Origin: a virus
IMG/VR virus record: IMGVR_UViG_3300009149_000012
Span: 1-64,000 of that record
DNA length: 64,000 nucleotides
Direction: 5' to 3' (one strand)
In this document: one piece after another, positions 3,731-63,088 of the stretch
Position numbering within the stretch: position 1 is the first letter of the stretch
Layout: the number at the start of each line of letters is the position of its first letter
The notes under the pieces: model-generated
Told to the model about the DNA's origin: nothing
Databases searched by the model: none
What the model saw: only the letters and a program-made list of their open reading frames with translations
Program-made: the position numbers and the translations under genes

Positions 3731-6700
3731 TCAGACCTGTGCCCTCTTGTCGGCGATCTCTTTGTCGAGACGATCAAGGTTTTTCTGTGTCTCGTTGATC
3801 CGGTCATCCACGTTGCCTTGAGCTACGCCCCGGTTCTTCTCACCAATGAGCGTGTCAAGTTCCGCCTGAGTTTGCCTTCGCTGTTGGTTAAGGCGAGCTA
3901 GCTCGGACGTGGTTTTCGTTCGATTTACAGTTTCGTTCAAAGAGTTTCCAAACGCACTGTAAGCATCCTTGATGTCGCCCACTGCATTGGAGGCTACCAC
4001 GGCAGTGGCTCTTGGGTCACCCAATGCCGCTCGGTTCGAAGCCGAATATGGAGGCGCAAGCTCTGGGGACGAAGGAAGTGGATCCGCCAGGGCTTCCCCC
4101 TCGACGAAGACAGGACCCACAACCTCAGTTTTCCCTCCCCGGATCGCCTTCTCGTACTCGTAATGCGGTTCGTCGAGAGCGGAGTACAGCGTGAACATAA
4201 ACTGGTCTGCCCTGGCGATCGTTTCGTCGAGGCTTTTGGTAAGCAGGTTGGGGCTAACAGGCCTATTCTCCGCAAACGCTTGCTCGTAGGTGTAGCGGCG
4301 CTGCGCATCAACTTGACCGACAAGATCCTGACCGGTGATTGCTGATTGTGCTTCCAAACCAGCTTGGGTATCAGCATCAAGCCCAACCCCAGTGATGGGG
4401 TCGACGTCTTGACCGAACGCTCCGAAGAATGTCGAACCGCCACCGGCAGAGGATGGCAAGGCGCTCAAGTCCGACGACGCCTGCGTAATCGTCTTGACCT
4501 GATAGCCGACGTTCATGAACGCCAAGTCGCTTCGAGCCATGAGGCACGAACAATCACCACCCTCATCTTGAATGGACATTTCCTTGACGTGCATTTCCGC
4601 CAGGGTGAGCGCCCGGCTCAACTGCGAAGCCTCAGCACTTGCCGGAAGGTTCTGATCAGTTGGGGCGCCGATGATGGTCGACTGATTGTTGACGAAGTTG
4701 TTGCCCGGATCCAAGATGGTCGGAAGTCCGGTGTCGGGGTGAATGATTGCTGCCGTCTCGGTGTCATCCGGGGTTAGGTTCGCCACCGCCCATGCTGGGT
4801 TGGGGTACGGAGACGTGATGGTCGTCAACCCTGCCGACTGCGACCGCAGAATGCTCAAGAGGTTGCCCGAGAGCGCAAGCTGTGTGTCGATATTGGCTGC
4901 CGTGAACTTCCCATCTTCGATAGGAATAAGCATTCCATCCCGTAGTGAGATCCCACGTCCGTAGCGGAAGTGGCCGACGACTTCGAAGCCCCGCTCGTCC
5001 GAGACCGGCTGGATCAAAGCTGATCCGTGCTGGCTCTTGGCAATGGAGATGAGGGTGTCGTCCTTGTAGGCCAAAAGACGCTTGCGAGGAAGTAGGAGCG
5101 TTTCCAGGATCTTGCCGGACGCGTCGTGGGCGTAAGTGTAAACGCCCGCCGAGTTGAGTCCGTAGGAGTAGCGGTTGATGATGTACTTTTCTCGCAGATC
5201 GTCCGAGAAGTTGTGAACGTACCGCTCATCCATCTCAGCGATCTGCTGTTTACCCGCCGATTCGATGGCCCCTTGTTGTTTCTTCCGCTTGTCGAGTTGC
5301 TTTTCCAAACCGGCTGGATTCCGACCCGCCACGCCTTGGAGTGCTTCTGGCGACGGTGTAAAGGGGCGAGTGTAGACCAAAGCCACATTCGGGTAGCCCA
5401 TGACCCGGCCCGTCTTGGGGTGCCGAAGCACGAGAGGGGCGTAGGGCGACTCGTTGTTGATCACCAAGTCGGGGGAAGCCGATGGGATCGTTGCCGCTCG
5501 CCCAACGTCGAGGCGGAAGGATGCGTTATTTGCCAGGTCTCTCGACGTGAACAGCCCTTCGTCAACCGCATCCTCACCGGAAGTGCCCACGTTGACCGCT
5601 GAGGAGCCCTTGTAGCTCGCCATCCGAAGCTTACCGATCCCTTGAGGGGCGATATACTTCTGGCGCTTCGCCGTGAGCGTAAGGGTCGTGGTTGCTCGCC
5701 CACCCATTTGGATGTTGTGCGAGATGCCTTGGATGTACCACATCTGGTCCTTGCTCCCGATGTAGATCGGGAAGCCAAGCCGAAGCTCTGGGCGGCAAGG
5801 AATCGTGACGTTGCACCTATGGCGTTTCGAATTGATGCGGTCGAGATGGTCCATCCCGACGTAGAACATGAGTTGGGTCGAACCGAGAAACTCGCTTGAC
5901 AGTGTTTGGGGTCGCCAGCCGTACTTTCGGAGCAGATGGTAGTCGGTGACCGAAGTGAACGGCGTGCATTCCTCTGGCATGCCGTAGTCGACGTTGCCTC
6001 CGAACGCACCTTGAATGGTCAACTGGGTAACCACCTCAGCTTCAGACTCCGAGAAGTCCCAGTCAATGACGTCGATGTCCTGGATCCACGAGACAGGCTT
6101 GTTCGCGAGCACGTCCATATTGAAGAACGGAGGCTTAAAGACGATGTCCCCGGTCACATCCATGAAGAATTCGAAGCCGATCGCTTCTTTCGCCGAGTTT
6201 GCAAGCTCTAGCTTCGTTTGGTACTCGCTCTGCCAGAAGTTGACCTGACCCGCCTGACTGAATTGTGTGCGGAAGGCCGTTACATTCGGGTCCGTGGGGT
6301 CATATACCTGTTGACCACCGTACTTGCCGCCGTTGGCCTTACGGACGGCGCTAGACGCAAAGGGCTGCCCGCTTCGAACCCGGCTGTGCTTGCGGAAAAT
6401 CTCATAAAGCGTGTCGCCCCGTACCGCTTTACCATGGCTGCCATACAGCAAGAGGTTGGACCGCATCCGCTTGAAACGTTGCTCCCAGTAAATCATGATG
6501 TCGGTCAGAGCCACATTGAAGGTCGCTTTTTGCTGGGCTTCCTTGTAGAGGCTCACGAGCGACCCACTCCCGACCACGATGTCCCCGAAGCTCACCTGAG
6601 CAAGTGTCCAGATGATGTCGTAGGGGTTCATCCCGAAGAACACGTTGCCGAAGATGCTTCGACCTTGCTGGCCGGTTGCCTGCGTGAACGCCGGGTTGAT

Positions 6701-7147
6701 GTTCATGCGGCACAGTTCCCACCACTTGAGGATGTCCTCGCAGTTGATGTTCACCGTGTGCTCACCACCCGAGTAGCTGTCCCCCACCTCGGTGACGAGT
6801 CCCCAAAAGATCGGGTAATACTGCGGAAGCCCTTCCATGAGGAAGTAGCCCTTCGCATAGATCTCGATCTCCATCATGGGGGTGACGATGGGATTGCCGT
6901 CGAAGTAGAACTCATCGACCGTGTGCCGGGGGACAGACATCGAGATGCTTGCCGAACCGGGAGCATTCTCGACGTTCAGATCGACGGAGACGCTCGTGAT
7001 GTAGCGGTTGAAGTCAAACCGACGCTGGCAGTTTGGGCAGCCCAGAACGTCGGTCTCGCCGTTGATGTACACGAGCGCGTCGGGCCCGTGCATGACGGTG
7101 GGGCGCTGGCCTGGGTTCCAGGTGCCTTGGAAGGGGCTGCGAGCCAT
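3731..7147 (-). CDS. baseplate hub protein (gp27/gpD-like)
   Basis: At 1,138 residues this is much longer than T4 gp27 or P2 gpD. Residues about 30-140 match the first hub barrel pattern: ITSVSVDLNVENAPGSASIS, then IEIYAKGYF, then IFWGLVTEVGDSYSGGEH and INCEDILKWWE. A CPNC pair at residues 37 and 40 may bind a metal. The middle carries further strand-rich parts with LRLGFPIYIGSKD and a Tyr-rich region. The last ~80 residues are charged and helical (RLNQQRRQTQAELDTLIGEK), probably a coiled coil. It overlaps the next upstream gene's stop by one base and feeds straight into the spike gene, the usual hub-spike order. Confidence 0.82.
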   Translation of the reverse strand: MARSPFQGTWNPGQRPTVMHGPDALVYINGETDVLGCPNCQRRFDFNRYITSVSVDLNVENAPGSASISMSVPRHTVDEFYFDGNPIVTPMMEIEIYAKGYFLMEGLPQYYPIFWGLVTEVGDSYSGGEHTVNINCEDILKWWELCRMNINPAFTQATGQQGRSIFGNVFFGMNPYDIIWTLAQVSFGDIVVGSGSLVSLYKEAQQKATFNVALTDIMIYWEQRFKRMRSNLLLYGSHGKAVRGDTLYEIFRKHSRVRSGQPFASSAVRKANGGKYGGQQVYDPTDPNVTAFRTQFSQAGQVNFWQSEYQTKLELANSAKEAIGFEFFMDVTGDIVFKPPFFNMDVLANKPVSWIQDIDVIDWDFSESEAEVVTQLTIQGAFGGNVDYGMPEECTPFTSVTDYHLLRKYGWRPQTLSSEFLGSTQLMFYVGMDHLDRINSKRHRCNVTIPCRPELRLGFPIYIGSKDQMWYIQGISHNIQMGGRATTTLTLTAKRQKYIAPQGIGKLRMASYKGSSAVNVGTSGEDAVDEGLFTSRDLANNASFRLDVGRAATIPSASPDLVINNESPYAPLVLRHPKTGRVMGYPNVALVYTRPFTPSPEALQGVAGRNPAGLEKQLDKRKKQQGAIESAGKQQIAEMDERYVHNFSDDLREKYIINRYSYGLNSAGVYTYAHDASGKILETLLLPRKRLLAYKDDTLISIAKSQHGSALIQPVSDERGFEVVGHFRYGRGISLRDGMLIPIEDGKFTAANIDTQLALSGNLLSILRSQSAGLTTITSPYPNPAWAVANLTPDDTETAAIIHPDTGLPTILDPGNNFVNNQSTIIGAPTDQNLPASAEASQLSRALTLAEMHVKEMSIQDEGGDCSCLMARSDLAFMNVGYQVKTITQASSDLSALPSSAGGGSTFFGAFGQDVDPITGVGLDADTQAGLEAQSAITGQDLVGQVDAQRRYTYEQAFAENRPVSPNLLTKSLDETIARADQFMFTLYSALDEPHYEYEKAIRGGKTEVVGPVFVEGEALADPLPSSPELAPPYSASNRAALGDPRATAVVASNAVGDIKDAYSAFGNSLNETVNRTKTTSELARLNQQRRQTQAELDTLIGEKNRGVAQGNVDDRINETQKNLDRLDKEIADKRAQV

Positions 7148-9249
7148 TAGAGGTTGAACCCCCCGATTCCGGTTCCGGCTGTGAGGCCACCTTCACGAGC
7201 GGGGGCAACGGTTGCTGGCGCTGGCGGCGTCACTGCCGGCACGGACTTTCCACCCTTGGGTGTTGGGACTGTTCCCGGCTTTGGCCCCCTGGAAGCGGCT
7301 CGGCGTCCGGAAGGTGTCTTTGAGGCTGAAAGAGCCGCTTCATCTGCTGTGGCGACTTCGAGCATCCCCCGAGCTTGACGTGCGGTGGGGCTGTCCGGAT
7401 CTATCGGGTTATTTGTGGGCGGCGCGAAGGGGGCTGCCGGAAGCTCGTTCGGGTTTGCACCCACGAGGTACTTCGAGTTGTAGTTCATCCCTGGGTCAGC
7501 GACTCGATCAAGCACGAACGACGCTCGCACCGTGAAACTGAAGTTGTATTCCAGCGTGAACGGAGCCGTGTCCGTCTCGGTGATGCTGAAGCTGTCGAAC
7601 GAGCCAAAGTAGATGATGTTGTCGTAATAGATCCAAATGGACCCCACAGCCGAAAGGTTCTGGTACTTCTGGCTAGTCGAGAAGCTCTCAAATTCGAGCC
7701 ACAAGCCACCGTTGTTCCGATACAGAAGCCACAAGGACATGAAGTTCTGGTAGCTCTGCGAGAAGTTGCGAATCGTTCGGCTCAAGCCGGGCCCACCAAG
7801 CCCGGTCGTCTCCGTGTAGCCCAGGTTCGCTACGCTCGCATTGTACTGAGGACCACCGTACTTGTCGACAGCATAGAAGCCTGCAATCTTGCCGCTCGCC
7901 TCGATCTTGCCTTGGTTGTCACCCCAATGCTCGACGATGGGCCCGTAGCGACCGTAGTTTCCATCGGCAACGATCTTCTCATCTGAGACCGAAAACTTCT
8001 GTGGCGCGATGAGCATCCGGAGGGGCGGCGTGTTTTTCATCCGCTCAAGCTCGGCTCGCGTCTTTTTGATCATCTGGGTTTGAGCCGCAGTGAACATGGA
8101 AGCGATCTGCTTGCCGGACAGAATCCCCGTGTCTGCTAGGCTGTTCTGGAGACTCCGGATGTAGTTGGCTTCGGCGCTGCCATCCTGCCAGTTGGATGTG
8201 CCATCCTCCTCAGCTTGGTTGCAGGGAAGCGCGTCGGTCGGGTTAGAGCCGGCTCCAGAGTATGCCCCTTCCTCACTGCGCTTTTGGGCAGCTTGGATCT
8301 TCGCTGTCACGCCAAAGGGCGGTAATCCAGCTACGGCTGCTCCCAAATCCTCCAACCCAATATAGCCTTTAGCATACGAGTTTTTGCCACAAACAACACC
8401 GCCAATCTTGCCGCCTGTAGCCAATTTCGAGTGCAACCCATCTGCGCCACAGTTCTGGTCATATGCCCTCGCATTGAGAGCACGCTCACCAGGTTTCAGG
8501 TCTTTGAAGTCATCTGGGTTCGCGTCCATGTATCCTTGCGATGCGTATAGGATCCCCTCTGGGTTGCCTCGAACATATCCGAAATGCCCTACGTACAGGT
8601 CTTGCTTGCCTTTACCTCGAACCCGAGACTTTTTGAGAAACTGTTCCCAGTAGGGTAGCTGTTCCTCCCCAGAAAGGTCTTGGAAATTGTACCAGTCGTC
8701 TTCGCTCACACAGGCGATGTGGGCGACGGACTTGATGAGCATCCCAAGTCCTCGTGCCACAATCCGATTCGGGTCGTTAGCAGGACCGGCTGCCTCATAG
8801 GGATTGAACTGCGATTCATTGTAGAAAATCGCCGCCATAGCATCGGGCTCGACCCCAAGCCGTTCACACATCTCGACCCAACGAAGCCAGAAGTCGTCAG
8901 ACAAGTCCGTCCATTTGAAGTTTTCCTTGTCGAGTTGCTTCTCATGGCTCCGATTGCCCGTAGTGATGTCTGTGAAATTTGCACCAACAATTGCAGCCAC
9001 ACTGTTCGACCGGTCGAGAAGCCGGCCGGTGACATTGGACGAAGGGGGAAGAATCCCCACAACGAACTTCTTTACCTCTTGCCCACCTCGAAGCACGGCG
9101 GGGGACACCGGCACAAAGTCCTCCCCAATTGGGTCGTCTTCCAAGAGGAAGGCGTCCGATCCGCCCAGAATAGAATAGACGCTTGGCTCGTAGTAATCCG
9201 CCGTGGCGTCAATTTGCTGGTAGATGCGATCGAATTTGGGATCTGTCAT
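7147..9249 (-). CDS. baseplate protein with lytic transglycosylase (SLT-type) domain
   Basis: In this 700-residue protein, residues about 115-240 look like a soluble lytic transglycosylase: WVEMCERLGVEPDAMAAIFYNESQFNPYEA contains the helix-Glu-Ser feature, with E145-S146 as the likely catalytic glutamate and its neighbour, followed by ARGLGMLIKS. This would cleave the peptidoglycan glycan chain during injection. Residues about 390-570 form a second domain (FSQSYQNFMSLWLLYRNN, WIYYDNIIYFGSFDSF, FTLEYNFSFTV) that resembles the body of the protein encoded at 9260-10252. The C-terminus is Pro/Ala/Gly-rich and likely flexible. Gene order (tape measure, this pair, hub, spike) supports a baseplate location. 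Confidence 0.8.
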   Translation of the reverse strand: MTDPKFDRIYQQIDATADYYEPSVYSILGGSDAFLLEDDPIGEDFVPVSPAVLRGGQEVKKFVVGILPPSSNVTGRLLDRSNSVAAIVGANFTDITTGNRSHEKQLDKENFKWTDLSDDFWLRWVEMCERLGVEPDAMAAIFYNESQFNPYEAAGPANDPNRIVARGLGMLIKSVAHIACVSEDDWYNFQDLSGEEQLPYWEQFLKKSRVRGKGKQDLYVGHFGYVRGNPEGILYASQGYMDANPDDFKDLKPGERALNARAYDQNCGADGLHSKLATGGKIGGVVCGKNSYAKGYIGLEDLGAAVAGLPPFGVTAKIQAAQKRSEEGAYSGAGSNPTDALPCNQAEEDGTSNWQDGSAEANYIRSLQNSLADTGILSGKQIASMFTAAQTQMIKKTRAELERMKNTPPLRMLIAPQKFSVSDEKIVADGNYGRYGPIVEHWGDNQGKIEASGKIAGFYAVDKYGGPQYNASVANLGYTETTGLGGPGLSRTIRNFSQSYQNFMSLWLLYRNNGGLWLEFESFSTSQKYQNLSAVGSIWIYYDNIIYFGSFDSFSITETDTAPFTLEYNFSFTVRASFVLDRVADPGMNYNSKYLVGANPNELPAAPFAPPTNNPIDPDSPTARQARGMLEVATADEAALSASKTPSGRRAASRGPKPGTVPTPKGGKSVPAVTPPAPATVAPAREGGLTAGTGIGGFNL

Positions 9250-34803: not shown

Positions 34804-35088
34804 ATGGCTGCGACCCTCACCCAAGCCCAACGCAACGACATCTGGCGGCTGGCGCAGCCGGAAGCTGAGAAGAACGGCCTGTTCTTCTACGAACAAAATG
34901 GGACAGACGAGCACCTTGAGGCTCTCGAATCCCTTGGGCTGATCACGTTCCGGTCGGCCACGCACTACTTTGCCTTCTCCAATGGCGAGCTTGGCGAAGA
35001 GGACGGCTTCCTGGTCAACATCACCGAAAAGGGCCGCAAATCCTATGAGCTTGCTGCCGCCGCTGGGCTGCACTCAGCTAGCACCTGA
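34804..35088 (+). CDS. small protein, possible winged-helix type
   Basis: This 94-residue protein starts MAATLTQAQRNDIWRLAQPE, one base after the stop of the small basic protein. The order helix, helix, LEALESLGLITFRSATHYFA, then INGELGEEDGF-like turns, FLVNITEKGRKSYELAA, resembles a winged-helix wing region followed by a C-terminal helix. This is a pattern impression only. The end overlaps the convergent split-intein gene by 15 bases. Confidence 0.58.
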   Translation: MAATLTQAQRNDIWRLAQPEAEKNGLFFYEQNGTDEHLEALESLGLITFRSATHYFAFSNGELGEEDGFLVNITEKGRKSYELAAAAGLHSAST

Positions 35089-35955
35089 AGCTCCAATGAA
35101 CGCCCGGGGGGTCAAAACCCCTCGACCCACGTAAGGTCCGAACGCCGACCTGATCCCGATGCCGTACTTCGGTTGCTGTACGCCTCGGATGATCTTCACG
35201 GTCTGCTTGGCCTTTTCGAGCATGTCGTTGAACTGATCGTTGGCCGAGTTGGCAGCGGCTTCGTATTTGCTGCTCCGCTCGATCGACAAGGAAATGCCGC
35301 CAATCGAGTAGTCGAATTCGTCGGCGATCCAGTTGATTTGGAGCGCTCGAAGGGCCCAGATCATGCCGCCCGTCAAAACGAGCGTGCGCCATTCGGGCCG
35401 AGACTGCATGAGGTGGTCGAGCGATCCGAACGGCGTGCGAGGGGGCGCAGCAATCGCCATGTCGAGCCCACGTTGGATGTACTCCAGAAGCTCTTCGTCC
35501 TCCCAGATGAACCCAAAGACCCTGTTGTATTGCTGGATCGTCTCTTCATGACTCGGCGGGCGGAAATGGTAGTTTCGGTCAGGGCAATTTGAGACGAGCA
35601 TCCCTGACTTATGAAGATAGAAATTGTGCCAATCCTCAGCCGTCAAGTCGTACATATACCGCCTTGGAGCCAAGGGCTTGATAGACATCACCTTTGCCCC
35701 CACGACGTCCGCACCAGAAGCCAACTTCCCAGCTTCAACCTTGGAAGTAGGGGACGTGAAAACCCGGTGACCCCATGTCAGAACGGAAGCCCCTCGGGTT
35801 GTGGTCACCTCAACAATGGTCTCTGGGCCAACTTCAACTCGATGTACATCGAGCACCCGCTTCCAATCTTCTGACCCTTCAGGAGACTTGGAACGAACCC
35901 TCAATGTACCAGCTTGAAAAGCCGCCTTGATCTTATCCTTCTGTGCCGTGTCCAA
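35074..35955 (-). CDS. C-terminal half of a fractured virion gene: C-intein (123 residues) plus C-extein (170 residues)
   Basis: A TTG at 35955, with GGAG seven bases upstream, gives MDTAQKDKIKAAFQAG. Residues 1-123 are the C-intein: block B with T60-W-G-H63 (VLTWGHRVFTSP) and an A-x-x-L-x-S-G-A-D-V-V-G strand; block F YDLTAEDWHNFYL (D103, H110); block G SGMLVSN, with Asn123 as the terminal residue. Cys124 is the +1 residue, and the C-extein starts CPDRNYHFRPPSHEET and continues with helices and a GMIWALRALQINWIADEF region. The usual penultimate His is Ser122. Splicing with the N-half would give a 300-residue protein reading ...LLRDN-CPDRNYHF..., continuous in sense. The TTG overlaps the endonuclease stop. 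Confidence 0.85.
   Translation of the reverse strand: MDTAQKDKIKAAFQAGTLRVRSKSPEGSEDWKRVLDVHRVEVGPETIVEVTTTRGASVLTWGHRVFTSPTSKVEAGKLASGADVVGAKVMSIKPLAPRRYMYDLTAEDWHNFYLHKSGMLVSNCPDRNYHFRPPSHEETIQQYNRVFGFIWEDEELLEYIQRGLDMAIAAPPRTPFGSLDHLMQSRPEWRTLVLTGGMIWALRALQINWIADEFDYSIGGISLSIERSSKYEAAANSANDQFNDMLEKAKQTVKIIRGVQQPKYGIGIRSAFGPYVGRGVLTPRAFIGASGAS
35587..35955 (-). other. C-intein segment (mature domain)
   Basis: This part codes for the 123-residue C-intein, from the TTG start to Asn123. It holds blocks B, F and G, while block A is on the other polypeptide. Confidence 0.8.
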
Positions 35956-36865
35956 AATCCTTCTCCGTCCAGACCAGGAAGTCCCACCCCATTGTGGATG
36001 CATAAGAGGAAGCCTCACGAAGCCTGTGTTGAACCTTGTGTGTTTCAGGCAAATCCAGCACCCAACTAGCCTTAACCTCAAGTAAAACCAAGTGATCATC
36101 CGTGTAGGTCACAACAAAGTCAGGCAGAATCCATCGCCCTGACGGAAGTTTGACCCTTGGCTCGAACACATAGGTTTTCACGTCAGGGTCTTCATCGAGA
36201 AGCGTGACCACGATACGTTCGTAACTACTACGGGTCCAGATCCTTGGCTTTGAACACTTCAGAGGTTCCACCCAAGCTCCTCGCCCCCTAGACCATTTCA
36301 CTGGGTCTTCGATCATGCGACGAGATTGAGCCTTGGACCTTCTCAGCCGCTCTTCTTCAGAACGATGGAAAGCCAGCAAATGGGCTCTTTCTTCTGGCCG
36401 CTGCCACCGACGAAGAGCCGACATGCGGCGACGCTCACGAACTTCGGGTCTTTGGTTCGCCAGCCGAAGAGTCTCTCGTTCCTCTGGAGACCGAATTTTT
36501 CCTCTATGGAAGTCGAATTTACCGTCTGCCCAATCTGCCCGAAGACTTTCCGACAACCAGGGCTTCTTCCGACCACGCCCCGCTCTACCCACACGAGCGG
36601 CATTTTCAACACGATTTGCTTGGGAAGCAGGGTTCCCGGTGGCCTGGGTGAGACGCTGGATCCCCATCAAGGAGAGACCCGTCAACCTGGACATTTCAAG
36701 CCAAGGCATACCGGCCTCATGTAGCTCGGTCACCAAGGCCCTACGTTTTTCGGCCACACCTTTGGGAGGACGACCCTTTTTCTGAAGTATCTCCCAAGAC
36801 AGTCCGTGTTTTTCAAGCAGGGGTGCCAGTTCAGGGGGTGCCGTGGATGGTTTCCCAGAGGTCAC
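35933..36865 (-). CDS. free-standing homing endonuclease, PD-(D/E)XK/Vsr-like, inside the fractured gene
   Basis: This 310-residue protein starts with GTG at 36865, overlapping the end of the N-intein frame. Residues about 33-77 look like a helix-turn-helix (WLEMSRLTGLSLMGIQRLTQ). Residues about 117-185 are basic repeats of the NUMOD3 kind (EVRERRRMSALRRWQRPEER). The catalytic part is residues 213-300: S-S-Y-E216, F-E235-P-R, L-P248-D249-F, L-E263-V-K265, then a helix and W-D-F-L-V-W. The PD...ExK layout is that of nucleases found with fractured split-intein genes. It lies exactly between the two halves and would spread the cassette by cutting an unbroken allele. Confidence 0.78.
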   Translation of the reverse strand: MTSGKPSTAPPELAPLLEKHGLSWEILQKKGRPPKGVAEKRRALVTELHEAGMPWLEMSRLTGLSLMGIQRLTQATGNPASQANRVENAARVGRAGRGRKKPWLSESLRADWADGKFDFHRGKIRSPEERETLRLANQRPEVRERRRMSALRRWQRPEERAHLLAFHRSEEERLRRSKAQSRRMIEDPVKWSRGRGAWVEPLKCSKPRIWTRSSYERIVVTLLDEDPDVKTYVFEPRVKLPSGRWILPDFVVTYTDDHLVLLEVKASWVLDLPETHKVQHRLREASSYASTMGWDFLVWTEKDFGHGTEG

Positions 36866-37319
36866 GGATAGTGGTTACCATTTTCTCACCATCCACGTCA
36901 AGCTCGACGGTCTCTTCTCCACCCACACAGTTATCCCTCAAAAGGATCCGGAGCCGGCGAATGAAGTCCTCTTCCACGCACGACATGGCGGTCACGCATT
37001 CAATCGTGCGGTCCACCACTTCAAATTCTTGAACAACCTGTTGGATCGGGCCGTTGACGAACTCTCGGAAGCTCCACCGAATCCGGTACTCGCCGATGTT
37101 GGCGTCGAGGGGGACCACAATGCTGGAGTAGTATTCTCCCACAGCAGGATGAGCCGGGGTGCGCCGGGGAACCCCAAGCAACACCTCTTGCCCTGCCGTG
37201 AAGTCATACAGGGCGTACGTGATCTCGGCAGCGTCGATGGGATGGTTCTGTGCGCTTTCGAGGAAGATGTTGAGGTCTTCCCGGCCTAGCTGCTGTCCTC
37301 GGTAGTACGCTGTTCCCAT
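36831..37319 (-). CDS. N-terminal half of the fractured virion gene: N-extein (130 residues) plus N-intein (32 residues)
   Basis: This 162-residue protein starts MGTAYYRGQQLGREDLNIFL. Residues 1-130 are an Ig-like virion domain (EITYALYDFTAGQEVLLGV; GEYYSSIVVPLDANIGEYRI) ending DFIRRLRILLRDN. From Cys131 the chain switches to an intein block A: CVGGEETVELDVDGEKMV, followed by TTIRDLWETI, and stops after only 32 intein residues. The partner is encoded at 35074-35955. Such a short N-intein puts this in the atypically split class (like AceL-TerL), not the Npu DnaE type with about 100 residues. The start codon follows two bases after the previous stop. Confidence 0.85.
   Translation of the reverse strand: MGTAYYRGQQLGREDLNIFLESAQNHPIDAAEITYALYDFTAGQEVLLGVPRRTPAHPAVGEYYSSIVVPLDANIGEYRIRWSFREFVNGPIQQVVQEFEVVDRTIECVTAMSCVEEDFIRRLRILLRDNCVGGEETVELDVDGEKMVTTIRDLWETIHGTP
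36834..36929 (-). other. N-intein segment
   Basis: This part codes for the 32-residue N-intein, beginning with the nucleophile Cys131 and ending at the natural stop of the gene. It contains block A only. Confidence 0.8.
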
Positions 37320-40702: not shown

Positions 40703-41125
40703 CTACTGCTCTTGCGCCGTGATCGAACTGACCGGGAAGGTGACCGTATCACCCGGGTCGACCGTCTTCGAGGCGGTGAGCGCACCGTAGTACAGCATGT
40801 TGCCGGCCGTGGCTGCGTCGAGAAGCGCCATGTGCGTGACGGTGCCCCAGGACAAGGTTGCCGTGGGGAAGGTCACTGCGCCACCCGAGTTGGTGGTCTG
40901 GCGGGGGGTACCAGCGGGGGCACCGAACAGACCTGTGGCTGCAACCCGTGCGTAGGCTGTGCCGACCGTGGTCACTTCCGCAACCTGGCTACCGGCGTTG
41001 CCGGGATCTGCCGTGAACAGGGCCACGTAGACCGCTGCCGGGCTGGTGGCGGTGAAGTTGGCGTTCTGGCAAAGCCAGAAGTCCAGGGTTCGTTCTTCAG
41101 CGTAGTACGTCTTGTTGTCGGCCAT
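40703..41125 (-). CDS. small tail/decoration protein of the AVY(I/V)ALFT family, copy 1
   Basis: This 140-residue protein starts at the ATG at 41125 (MADNKTYYAEERTLDFWLCQ), with AAGGA seven bases upstream. It carries S-P-A-A-V-Y-V-A-L-F-T-A-D-P, a Gly-rich loop, W-G-T-V-T-H-M-A-L-L-D-A-A-T-A-G-N-M-L-Y-Y-G-A-L-T and F-P-V-S-S-I-T-A-Q-E-Q. It is a clear paralogue of the gene at 39186-39569. The upstream endonuclease VII-like frame ends inside its first codons. Confidence 0.7.
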   Translation of the reverse strand: MADNKTYYAEERTLDFWLCQNANFTATSPAAVYVALFTADPGNAGSQVAEVTTVGTAYARVAATGLFGAPAGTPRQTTNSGGAVTFPTATLSWGTVTHMALLDAATAGNMLYYGALTASKTVDPGDTVTFPVSSITAQEQ

Positions 41126-41705
41126 GAGTCAGTTCCTTGTTAGGAGGTTGGTCACCTGTAGATGCCTTATGAACAGAAAACCGATCATCCCACTCATCAA
41201 GAAACGCCGCCGCCGCCCGAAGCAGCGAAGCATCGTCTTTGGCATACCCAAGAACCAGGTTGCAATTTCGGTGGATCAACCCCCGCACACACTTGCCGCA
41301 AGACTTTTTCCCCGAACAGCACGTCCGGTCGTGATCCACACAAACGGAGAGAGGGTCCTTGCCCTCTTTGAGCATGGGCTTATGGCAAACAGCGCACAAA
41401 CCATCCTGAGCTTGCCAAAGGGCTTCGAAATCGACGTTGTACCTTCCTCGATACACGATGGCCTTGAACTGCTTGGGGTGTCGTAGCTGCCAATCCCGAG
41501 AAATCTGGGACGCACGGCCAGGATTCTTAGCTCGCCAAGCCGTTGTTCGTGCGTTGTACTTTTGAGGGTCGGCTGCTTGCCGAGCCGTGTTGTCTTTATT
41601 GGTGCAGACTTTACACTGGGCTCGGCGTTTGGTGGGATCGTTTCGTCGACACAGATGAAAGTCGTCTTCGTCTTTGTCTAGGCCACACTTGGTGCATCGC
41701 TTCAT
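41097..41705 (-). CDS. endonuclease VII-type (HNH) zinc nuclease
   Basis: In this 202-residue protein, the N-terminus is a small zinc ribbon (C4-x-x-C7 and C31-x-x-C34 in CKVCTNK) of the kind often placed before phage HNH nucleases. The core is LWQAQDGLCAVCHKPM (C104, C107), VDHDR at 123-127 and RGLIHRNCNLVLGYAKDD (H145, C148, N149), the endonuclease VII fold. A short Cys-rich insert (CCSGKKSCGKC) follows VDHDR. It lies within the tail operon and overlaps the next gene's start, which fits a mobile nuclease gene more than an essential Holliday-junction resolvase. Confidence 0.75.
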   Translation of the reverse strand: MKRCTKCGLDKDEDDFHLCRRNDPTKRRAQCKVCTNKDNTARQAADPQKYNARTTAWRAKNPGRASQISRDWQLRHPKQFKAIVYRGRYNVDFEALWQAQDGLCAVCHKPMLKEGKDPLSVCVDHDRTCCSGKKSCGKCVRGLIHRNCNLVLGYAKDDASLLRAAAAFLDEWDDRFSVHKASTGDQPPNKELTHGRQQDVLR

Positions 41706-61744: not shown

Positions 61745-63088
61745 TCACGCAGCTATATCTACACCGCTCGCAGTCAAAGCCGGTCGATTTGCAATGTTTC
61801 GAGCGGCGTTGATGTCTCGATGCAACCGAAGTCCACATTTCGGGCACGTTCCAATCGGACCATGCTCGAAAGCCCAAGCTTCCTTATCCAAATGCCCGCA
61901 CGCAGAGCATTTCTGAGAAGTGTAGGACGGGTCTACTTCGCCCACACGTTCAAGGTACCTGCCTAGCACTATTGTCGCCGTAAGCCGCATGGAGGAAGTC
62001 ATCCGGCTCCCCATCTGACCGATACGCTGGCTAAGCTTTTCGATCTTGATGCTTTCAACCCGTTCGAGCGGCTTAAGCACCTCATTGTAGATGAGGTGAC
62101 GAACATGGCGGGTCATCTTCTGCTGTATACGGCCAACCGGAAGCCCTTTTGCTTGCCGACCCGCAATTTGCTCGGCGTAGAGCTTCTCCCGGGGGTTTCG
62201 GACAAGCGTGCCGTCGCTCATGGCAGCCAAGACCACCAAACCAACATCGATACCCATGACAGAGCCAGGGATCGGGTCGGGCAACTTGCGAATGGGTACC
62301 TCTTGCTTGATCGAGGCCCACCAACCATCGGCTTGTCGACGGATGCTCACCCCTTCCAAAACGCGTCCCCAAGGGACGTCTCCCGGCAAGCGCCCCTTGA
62401 TCTTCAGACCATTGAACATTACCTGGCAATCGTAGAAATCCGGGTTCTTACCCCTCGCACCGAACGAACCCGTCTTGAAACACATGCCGCTTCGGGTTTG
62501 GAGCGGCATGTGGTCGCTCTTCCGACGAAACTTCTTTCGCCTCTGACCCTTAGCACGACCACTTCCATCCGCTGCCTTGCCGCTTTTGAAGTAGTTCTTG
62601 ACGAGCGCTTGGTATGTCCCAGCCCGAACCTTCACTTCCTCATCGTGATGGAAAAGGTGGGACTGAAAGAACTGGTAGTCATACTTGAACCCGAACCGCT
62701 CGATTTCTTTACTGAACGGAAGACGAAGCTTGCAGCCGGGGACCTTCTTTGTCGCCTCATGGACCTTCTGGTTCCACTCCAAGTACATCTGGATGTTTTC
62801 ATCCTTTGTCTCTTGGGCTTCTTTCGGGGTCATCCCGTCGTAGTCGACCGGGGGAAAGCACGGTACCCCTCGCTTTGTCCGGTACCCTGGATCAATCACG
62901 AGCCCCGCTTTGACAGCGTAGATCTTTTGGACTTCGATCAATTCCTCGATTTGCTTGACCATCCAATTCCAGCAACGACGCAAGTCGTCTTCGATGAGCG
63001 TTAGCTTCCGCTCGGTTTCCTTGTCCGGGTACAGTCGGATCATGAAGCCCCGAACTTCGTTCCCAGGTTGACAGACGAACTTTTTCAT
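61745..63088 (-). CDS. TnpB-like RNA-guided RuvC nuclease
   Basis: This 447-residue protein, with AAGGGA eight bases before the ATG, starts MKKFVCQPGNEVRGFMIRLY, the TnpB-type N-terminus (R-L-Y-P-D-K-E-T-E-R-K-L). The RuvC-like site is complete: D281 in M-G-I-D-V-G-L, E350 in I-K-I-E-K-L-S, D425 in H-R-D-I-N-A-A-R-N-I. A zinc ribbon is made by C394/C397 and C415/C418 (CSACG, CPKCG). The size is in the TnpB range. No TnpA transposase, Cas1 or Cas2 is nearby, and five copies of a 35-bp hairpin repeat flank it. It is probably a captured TnpB used by the phage; targets are unknown. Confidence 0.8.
   Translation of the reverse strand: MKKFVCQPGNEVRGFMIRLYPDKETERKLTLIEDDLRRCWNWMVKQIEELIEVQKIYAVKAGLVIDPGYRTKRGVPCFPPVDYDGMTPKEAQETKDENIQMYLEWNQKVHEATKKVPGCKLRLPFSKEIERFGFKYDYQFFQSHLFHHDEEVKVRAGTYQALVKNYFKSGKAADGSGRAKGQRRKKFRRKSDHMPLQTRSGMCFKTGSFGARGKNPDFYDCQVMFNGLKIKGRLPGDVPWGRVLEGVSIRRQADGWWASIKQEVPIRKLPDPIPGSVMGIDVGLVVLAAMSDGTLVRNPREKLYAEQIAGRQAKGLPVGRIQQKMTRHVRHLIYNEVLKPLERVESIKIEKLSQRIGQMGSRMTSSMRLTATIVLGRYLERVGEVDPSYTSQKCSACGHLDKEAWAFEHGPIGTCPKCGLRLHRDINAARNIANRPALTASGVDIAA

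Follow-up and report, generated by a model that had tools for sequence, protein, structure and literature searches.

The 64,000-nucleotide (nt) stretch of DNA analysed here, hereafter the window, comprises positions 1 to 64,000 of the 148,881-base IMG/VR virus record IMGVR_UViG_3300009149_000012, and contains a likely head-tail connector gene that is interrupted by a split intein and a free-standing endonuclease gene. The list of open reading frames (ORFs) places three overlapping frames in succession on the minus strand: the N-terminal half of the connector gene (N-half, 36831-37319), the endonuclease gene (35933-36865) and the C-terminal half (C-half, 35074-35955). The N-half overlaps the endonuclease gene by 35 nt and the endonuclease gene overlaps the C-half by 23 nt; the interval between the exteins is entirely coding, in three overlapping frames. 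We propose that these three genes are very probably a mobile fractured gene in the connector gene, expressed by trans-splicing and spread by homing.

The N-half encodes a precursor of 162 amino acids (aa), opening with a 130 aa N-extein (36930-37319, minus strand) that ends LRILLRDN and is 41-73% identical to the N-terminal part of single-chain homologues. A 32 aa N-intein carrying block A follows, running from Cys1 to Pro32 and, with its stop codon, occupying 36831-36929 of the same strand; it starts at Cys131 of the precursor (CVGGEETVELDVDGEKMVTTIRDLWETIHGTP) and matches the profile of inteins at this insertion site (site 1) with an E value of 3e-13. The 293 aa precursor of the C-half opens with a 123 aa C-intein (35587-35955, minus strand), with TWGH as the TxxH motif of block B, a block F of the form MYD...HN (MYDLTAEDWHNF) and an SN end, the terminal Asn being followed by C|PDRNYHFRPPSH. 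This C-intein matches PF14890 (2.6e-5) and the intein profile (E 4e-56). The next codon, a TGC (35584-35586, minus strand), supplies the +1 Cys, the predicted C-extein nucleophile, and begins the 170 aa, helical and head-tail connector-like C-extein (35074-35586, minus strand). The open frame of the C-half extends upstream to 36099, and the TTG at 35955, which has a GGAG 7 nt upstream, is taken as the true start because the C-halves of other records begin with ATG at the aligned position. An initial annotation, made from the letters alone, had already placed both frames, the Cys131 that opens the 32-residue N-intein, the start at 35955 and the end of the intein at Asn123, and the ORFs and motifs bear it out in each of these respects; the endonuclease gene, a second insertion site and the evidence for mobility had escaped it.

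The profile of 14 homologous site-1 inteins matched solved inteins, among them KlbA/MJ0781 (E 1.1e-9) and Pho RadA (E 1.1e-6), and its match to solved HINT structures (E 1e-9) may reflect a HINT fold. The curated models TIGR01445 and TIGR01443 (intein_Nterm and intein_Cterm) were matched by eight and seven of the 14 members, respectively, and as judged from sequence the intein stands far above chance level. Numbered on the joined window intein, Cys1, T92, H95, D135 and N155 are invariant in the 14-member alignment and the block F His (H142) is present in 13, having been lost in L106; the relatives keep these catalytic residues at 42-65% intein identity. The features of a class 1 intein are present, namely Cys at position 1, TxxH in block B, the block F His, a C-terminal Asn and Cys or Ser at +1. 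The break falls between blocks A and B, and the atypical 32/123 split recognized in the initial annotation recurs as a two-part arrangement in 13 other records, where the N-parts measure about 30-37 aa.

Endonuclease genes are common in group I introns of phages, and an endonuclease lying inside an interrupted gene could thus also suggest a group I or group II RNA intron with its own enzyme, the likeness to an intein being coincidental. We regard this explanation as extremely improbable, since the whole interval is coding, both intein parts have matches among solved inteins and curated intein models, no Rfam intron match was found within the window, and a related element at a second position of the gene is a contiguous, in-frame intein in five other records (L076, L080, L124, L128 and L133).

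A scan with the C-extein returned 80 IMG/VR loci, which, after removal of identical rows, gave 61 empty and 14 occupied site-1 alleles. Most of these loci encode one uninterrupted chain through ...LLRDN|NPDRNYHFRPP..., and the 61 distinct uninterrupted alleles bridge the junction, as expected if the joined exteins form the continuous protein that had been proposed at the outset. The C-half does not align over its whole length to any such intein-free protein; only its last 170 residues do so, from +1/+2 onwards. All 14 occupied alleles have Cys or Ser at +1, versus one of the 61 empty ones (Fisher p = 2.7e-14), and 53 of the 61 have Asn there. The occupied +1 codons (TCC, TGC, TCG, TCT and AGT) are mostly more than one step from AAC or AAT, and the codon therefore probably arrived with the element. 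This association is the strongest evidence that sequence offers for selected splicing, by which the two halves would be joined into one chain. The sole uninterrupted allele with a +1 Ser, L028 (906-908), has a TCC codon and no intein, and the codon may be the scar of a precise intein loss.

The intein could alternatively be dead or degenerating, with a connector that works as two chains or a locus that is a decaying pseudogene. The missing penultimate His, the decay of the endonuclease gene in L079 and L101, and the loss of the block F His in L106 could be read in this way. We nonetheless consider decay very unlikely, because Cys1, TxxH, the block F His, the terminal Asn and the +1 nucleophile are all intact in the window, relatives with well-diverged inteins keep the catalytic residues, and the +1 pattern is explained by splicing and not by decay. 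Furthermore, in the C-intein and the C-extein the rate of non-synonymous differences (pN) lies well below that of synonymous differences (pS), which indicates purifying selection.

The gene between the halves starts with GTG and encodes a 310 aa protein with a helix-turn-helix (HTH)-like N-terminus, a helical middle and a C-terminal TnsA-like PD-(D/E)XK domain. The Tn7_TnsA-like_N family (PF08722; cut-off 26.5 bits) was matched by the window protein at 28.4 bits in the genome search, and by its relatives in L093 and L105 at 39 and 33.4 bits. The catalytic region (35963-36232, minus strand) contains RSxxE (212-216), PD (248-249), EVK (263-265) and TE (300-301); these motifs are conserved across 12 homologues, in which E216, P248, D249, E263 and K265 are invariant. 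An AlphaFold2 model of the protein (mean predicted local distance difference test score (pLDDT) 79.6) had TnsA structures (1t0f/1f1z) as its top three Foldseek matches, with E values of 9e-6 to 2e-5, the next family following at 1e-2. Sequence searches of the PDB, whether with the single protein or with a profile, yielded no helpful match, and the fold comparison alone was informative. Domain and profile searches found no LAGLIDADG, HNH, GIY-YIG or Vsr-like (Vsr/DUF559/MTES_1575) match to the site-1 endonuclease. Weak PHROG HTH matches place the HTH-like region in the helical N-terminal half, which would act as the DNA-binding arm expected of a homing enzyme. The gene is under purifying selection, with a pN of 0.25-0.35 versus a pS of 0.72-0.83 and changes mostly at third positions. 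From its motifs and modelled fold, we infer that the protein is a homing-type endonuclease that would cut empty alleles of the same gene. Both its TnsA-like type and its place in the loop between blocks A and B are unusual.

The same gene also matches the T4 gp4-like phrog_218 ('head closure', 2e-7), and TnsA is a transposition protein, so that a bystander might be suspected: a virion nuclease of the gp4-like head-completion kind, or a TnsA-like transposition nuclease, that happened to land in the intein. The distribution of the gene speaks against this. When the endonuclease and the C-intein were used as queries, the element turned up in 13 further distinct phage records, at exactly the same site and with the same layout, and the scans returned only the connector gene and site 1. 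No cellular or prophage copy of either part was found in genome_contigs, the scans reaching only sequences with the chosen short patterns. In all 14 records the endonuclease gene lies between the intein halves, intact or decayed (partly deleted in L079 and L101, and with its middle gone in L105 and L106); it accompanies the intein through the scattered set of occupied alleles, is flanked by a co-conversion tract, and occupies the same place as the Vsr-like endonucleases, a described homing type, of related inteins at the second site. A bystander nuclease is accordingly highly improbable, and a homing role for the gene is the reading that we prefer.

Two lines of evidence indicate that the element moves, namely the scatter of occupied alleles on the extein tree and one co-conversion tract. 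On that tree, occupancy takes 12 changes for the 14 occupied alleles, versus a mean of 13 when shuffled, and at least 11 changes are forced by well-supported branches. The tract was found in L076, which is occupied, by comparison with L077, which is empty: for kilobases on either flank they share 98-99% identity, which falls to about 84% in the 90 nt preceding site 1 and to 80.5% in the 261 nt following it, and the encoded protein hardly differs. Measured against a third phage, L024, L077 shows a normal 86-88% in this region and L076 falls to about 80-82%; the intein-bearing L076 is therefore the converted copy. At the sequence level, such a tract is the trace that homing with co-conversion would be expected to leave. 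Among named phages, the element occurs only in LR745208.1, an uncultured 485-kb phage.

The connector gene has a second insertion site, DEF|DYSIGG, 91 residues past site 1. It is empty in the window phage (35311-35316, minus strand) and occupied in some relatives by related inteins with a Ser start, an AHN|S end in nearly all records and the same short N-part. In most records they occur in split form, and the break is filled by a Vsr-like endonuclease; the Vsr-like/DUF559 assignment was tested against Pfam in L077 and L086, and the same motifs were seen by eye in the others. The site-2 intein of L079 is split without an endonuclease. In L086 (IMGVR_UViG_3300035150_000015, 4547-8195) the connector gene lies in three coding pieces with two split inteins, whose endonucleases are unrelated, TnsA-like at site 1 and Vsr-like/DUF559 at site 2. 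An intein tree set the site-1 and site-2 groups apart with full support, and scattered the contiguous forms among the split ones on weak inner branches; on this poorly resolved tree, the five contiguous site-2 inteins count as five changes. A site-2 intein that is contiguous in L076 (5271-5747) recurs, nearly unchanged, in the near-identical L077 (5271-6688), where a Vsr-like endonuclease gene splits it. A local re-fusion in L076 was considered for this pair and is weakened, as L076 is the converted copy and its tract reaches into the site-2 intein; the contiguous form may have been imported by conversion.

The existence of contiguous relatives at site 2 could also suggest that the split at site 1 is a frameshift or assembly error in a contiguous intein whose endonuclease domain lies in frame. 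The same three-gene layout appears in 14 separately assembled site-1 records, the stop of the N-half and the start of the endonuclease gene lie in different frames, and the start of the C-half is conserved, all of which makes an artefact hardly conceivable.

The mobile fractured gene would operate as follows. An N-intein tail, an endonuclease gene and a C-intein would have invaded the connector gene at the codon junction LLRDN|NPDRN. Both precursors would be translated from one polycistronic region, and the short N-intein would dock into the C-intein to complete the HINT fold. Trans-splicing through Cys1, Cys+1 and Asn123 would then join ...LLRDN to CPDRN..., giving a 300 aa single-chain connector that could serve as a working virion protein. 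In co-infecting phages, the TnsA-like endonuclease would cut uninterrupted alleles, and repair from the intein-bearing copy would insert the element and co-convert its flanks, including the +1 codon (Asn to Ser or Cys). We lean somewhat towards a broader reading, in which a TnsA-type nuclease was co-opted as a novel type of homing endonuclease for inteins and, housed in the A-B loop as a gene of its own, escapes the steric rule on in-chain endonuclease domains at the cost of a split intein; a gene of the L086 type would then need two orthogonal trans-splicing reactions, and site-2 inteins would pass between split and contiguous forms as the endonuclease is lost or regained.

Several observations weigh against the fractured-gene model. 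The window intein has Ser as its penultimate residue, as do 11 of the 14 site-1 inteins overall, the others having His (L093 and L105) or Lys (L106); inteins without a penultimate His are known, and it is not a required feature. In block B it has a Trp (TWGH) at a position taken by Gly or some other small or polar residue in its relatives, and its N-part, at 32 aa, exceeds the 15-25 aa reported for atypically split inteins. By hmmscan, the TnsA match of the window protein is marginal (25.7 versus the 26.5-bit cut-off), so that the assignment leans on relatives and on the model, for which the predicted template modelling score (pTM) is low, at 0.40. Lastly, the profile and fold matches behind the connector role are weak.

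Those matches nevertheless make a head-tail connector the likely identity of the host protein. The connector family phrog_17327 was matched by 10 of 37 homologues (best E 3e-5), a homologue in phage Tunturi_5 is annotated 'head-tail connector', the portal-adaptor complex 8gtd is a weak structural match (E 1.8e-3), and there is structural similarity to phage G gp165; the virion structural role first assigned to the gene is thereby moderately supported. A model of the intact homologue L001 (mean pLDDT 76.7) consists of an Ig-like beta-sandwich at about residues 3-102, a helix ending LLRD, a low-confidence loop with site 1, further helices, a hairpin at site 2 and a long helix. On this model the N-extein (36930-37319) comprises the Ig-like domain and the first helix of the connector part, and LRILLRDN, which had been taken for the end of the Ig-like domain, is instead the end of the helix that follows it (114-129). 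Upstream of the connector gene (L001:3862-4164, and at the same place in many loci) is a region encoding a domain 25-32% identical to the Ig-like N-terminal domain of the connector. Large ORFs flank the connector gene in L082 (2319-3443 and 5937-7370) and L068 (5558-7060); the downstream ORF of L082 has a DUF7487 match and YGVENP-like segments that recur along it, repeats of a similar kind occur in the L068 ORF, and these ORFs are possibly further homing-type genes at the connector locus.

Like known fractured genes and the AceL NrdHF system, the window element consists of a host gene in two parts, intein parts at their ends and a free-standing endonuclease in the gap, in a phage context. In the founding fractured-gene paper, by Dassa et al. 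in 2009, the enzyme family is reportedly Vsr-like. Genes of this type, in which split intein halves flank a free-standing endonuclease gene, are covered by PMC6801210 and PMC7891396, and in AceL NrdHF a GIY-YIG enzyme lies at the usual 98/48 aa break (PMC7891396). The window element differs from that system in its split in the A-B region (32/123) and its TnsA-like enzyme, and from known fractured genes in its host, a head-tail connector gene rather than one of replication or nucleotide metabolism. It resembles the atypically split inteins AceL-TerL, VidaL and PolB16 OarG (PMC10189870, PMC11923092) in having a very short N-intein and a long C-intein with all later blocks. Unlike the described examples, whose N-inteins are 15-25 aa (PMC11923092), the N-inteins here are 30-37 aa, an endonuclease gene fills the break at sites 1 and 2, and contiguous relatives exist at site 2.

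The endonuclease shares with TnsA of Tn7 (1t0f, 1f1z; PF08722) the fold of the catalytic domain and the motif order E...PD...EVK, and differs from it in its fused HTH-like and helical N-terminal region, its position between intein halves and the lack of transposon genes seen alongside. In the site-2 inteins of L077, L086 and others, the corresponding place is filled by enzymes whose Vsr/DUF559 matches recall the EDxHD/Vsr-like homing endonucleases of phages (I-Bth0305I type; PMC3943268), whereas the site-1 enzyme has no Vsr, DUF559 or MTES match. According to PMC6801210, the endonuclease domains of inteins always occupy one conserved position, since anywhere else they would collide with the exteins. 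An enzyme encoded by its own gene, as here at a different position, would escape this constraint. In the literature searched, with most subscription papers outside its scope, we found neither a TnsA-like homing endonuclease in an intein nor a split intein in a connector gene. The arrangement as such is known; the host gene, the enzyme type and the natural variants look new.

The 14 atypically split inteins at one site, together with their empty alleles and about 20 sister inteins at site 2, both split and contiguous, form a natural set that makes it testable how and why inteins split, and whether a split is simply what a free-standing homing endonuclease gene leaves behind. The set adds a TnsA-like nuclease to the homing candidates, is a source of new short-N split inteins for use in protein ligation, and suggests that large phages can rely on trans-splicing to assemble their virions.

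Outside the window, the same virus record holds two more inteins, both contiguous, at about 80,870-82,190 (L169) and 69,060-69,900 (L168); with the fractured gene, this phage therefore has at least three. One of the two lies in a terminase-like gene (GRRAGK|C...HN|TTLS) and, read by eye, has an apparent LAGLIDADG-type insert; the other lies in another gene (SMG|CFLPG...VSN|CTVEY). Within the window, an Endonuclease VII/HNH-like gene a few kilobases upstream of the fractured gene (41097-41705, minus strand; phrog_2633, 1.6e-18) is possibly another free-standing homing-type nuclease, and a transposase-like ORF lies at 61745-63088 (minus strand; phrog_506, 1e-30).

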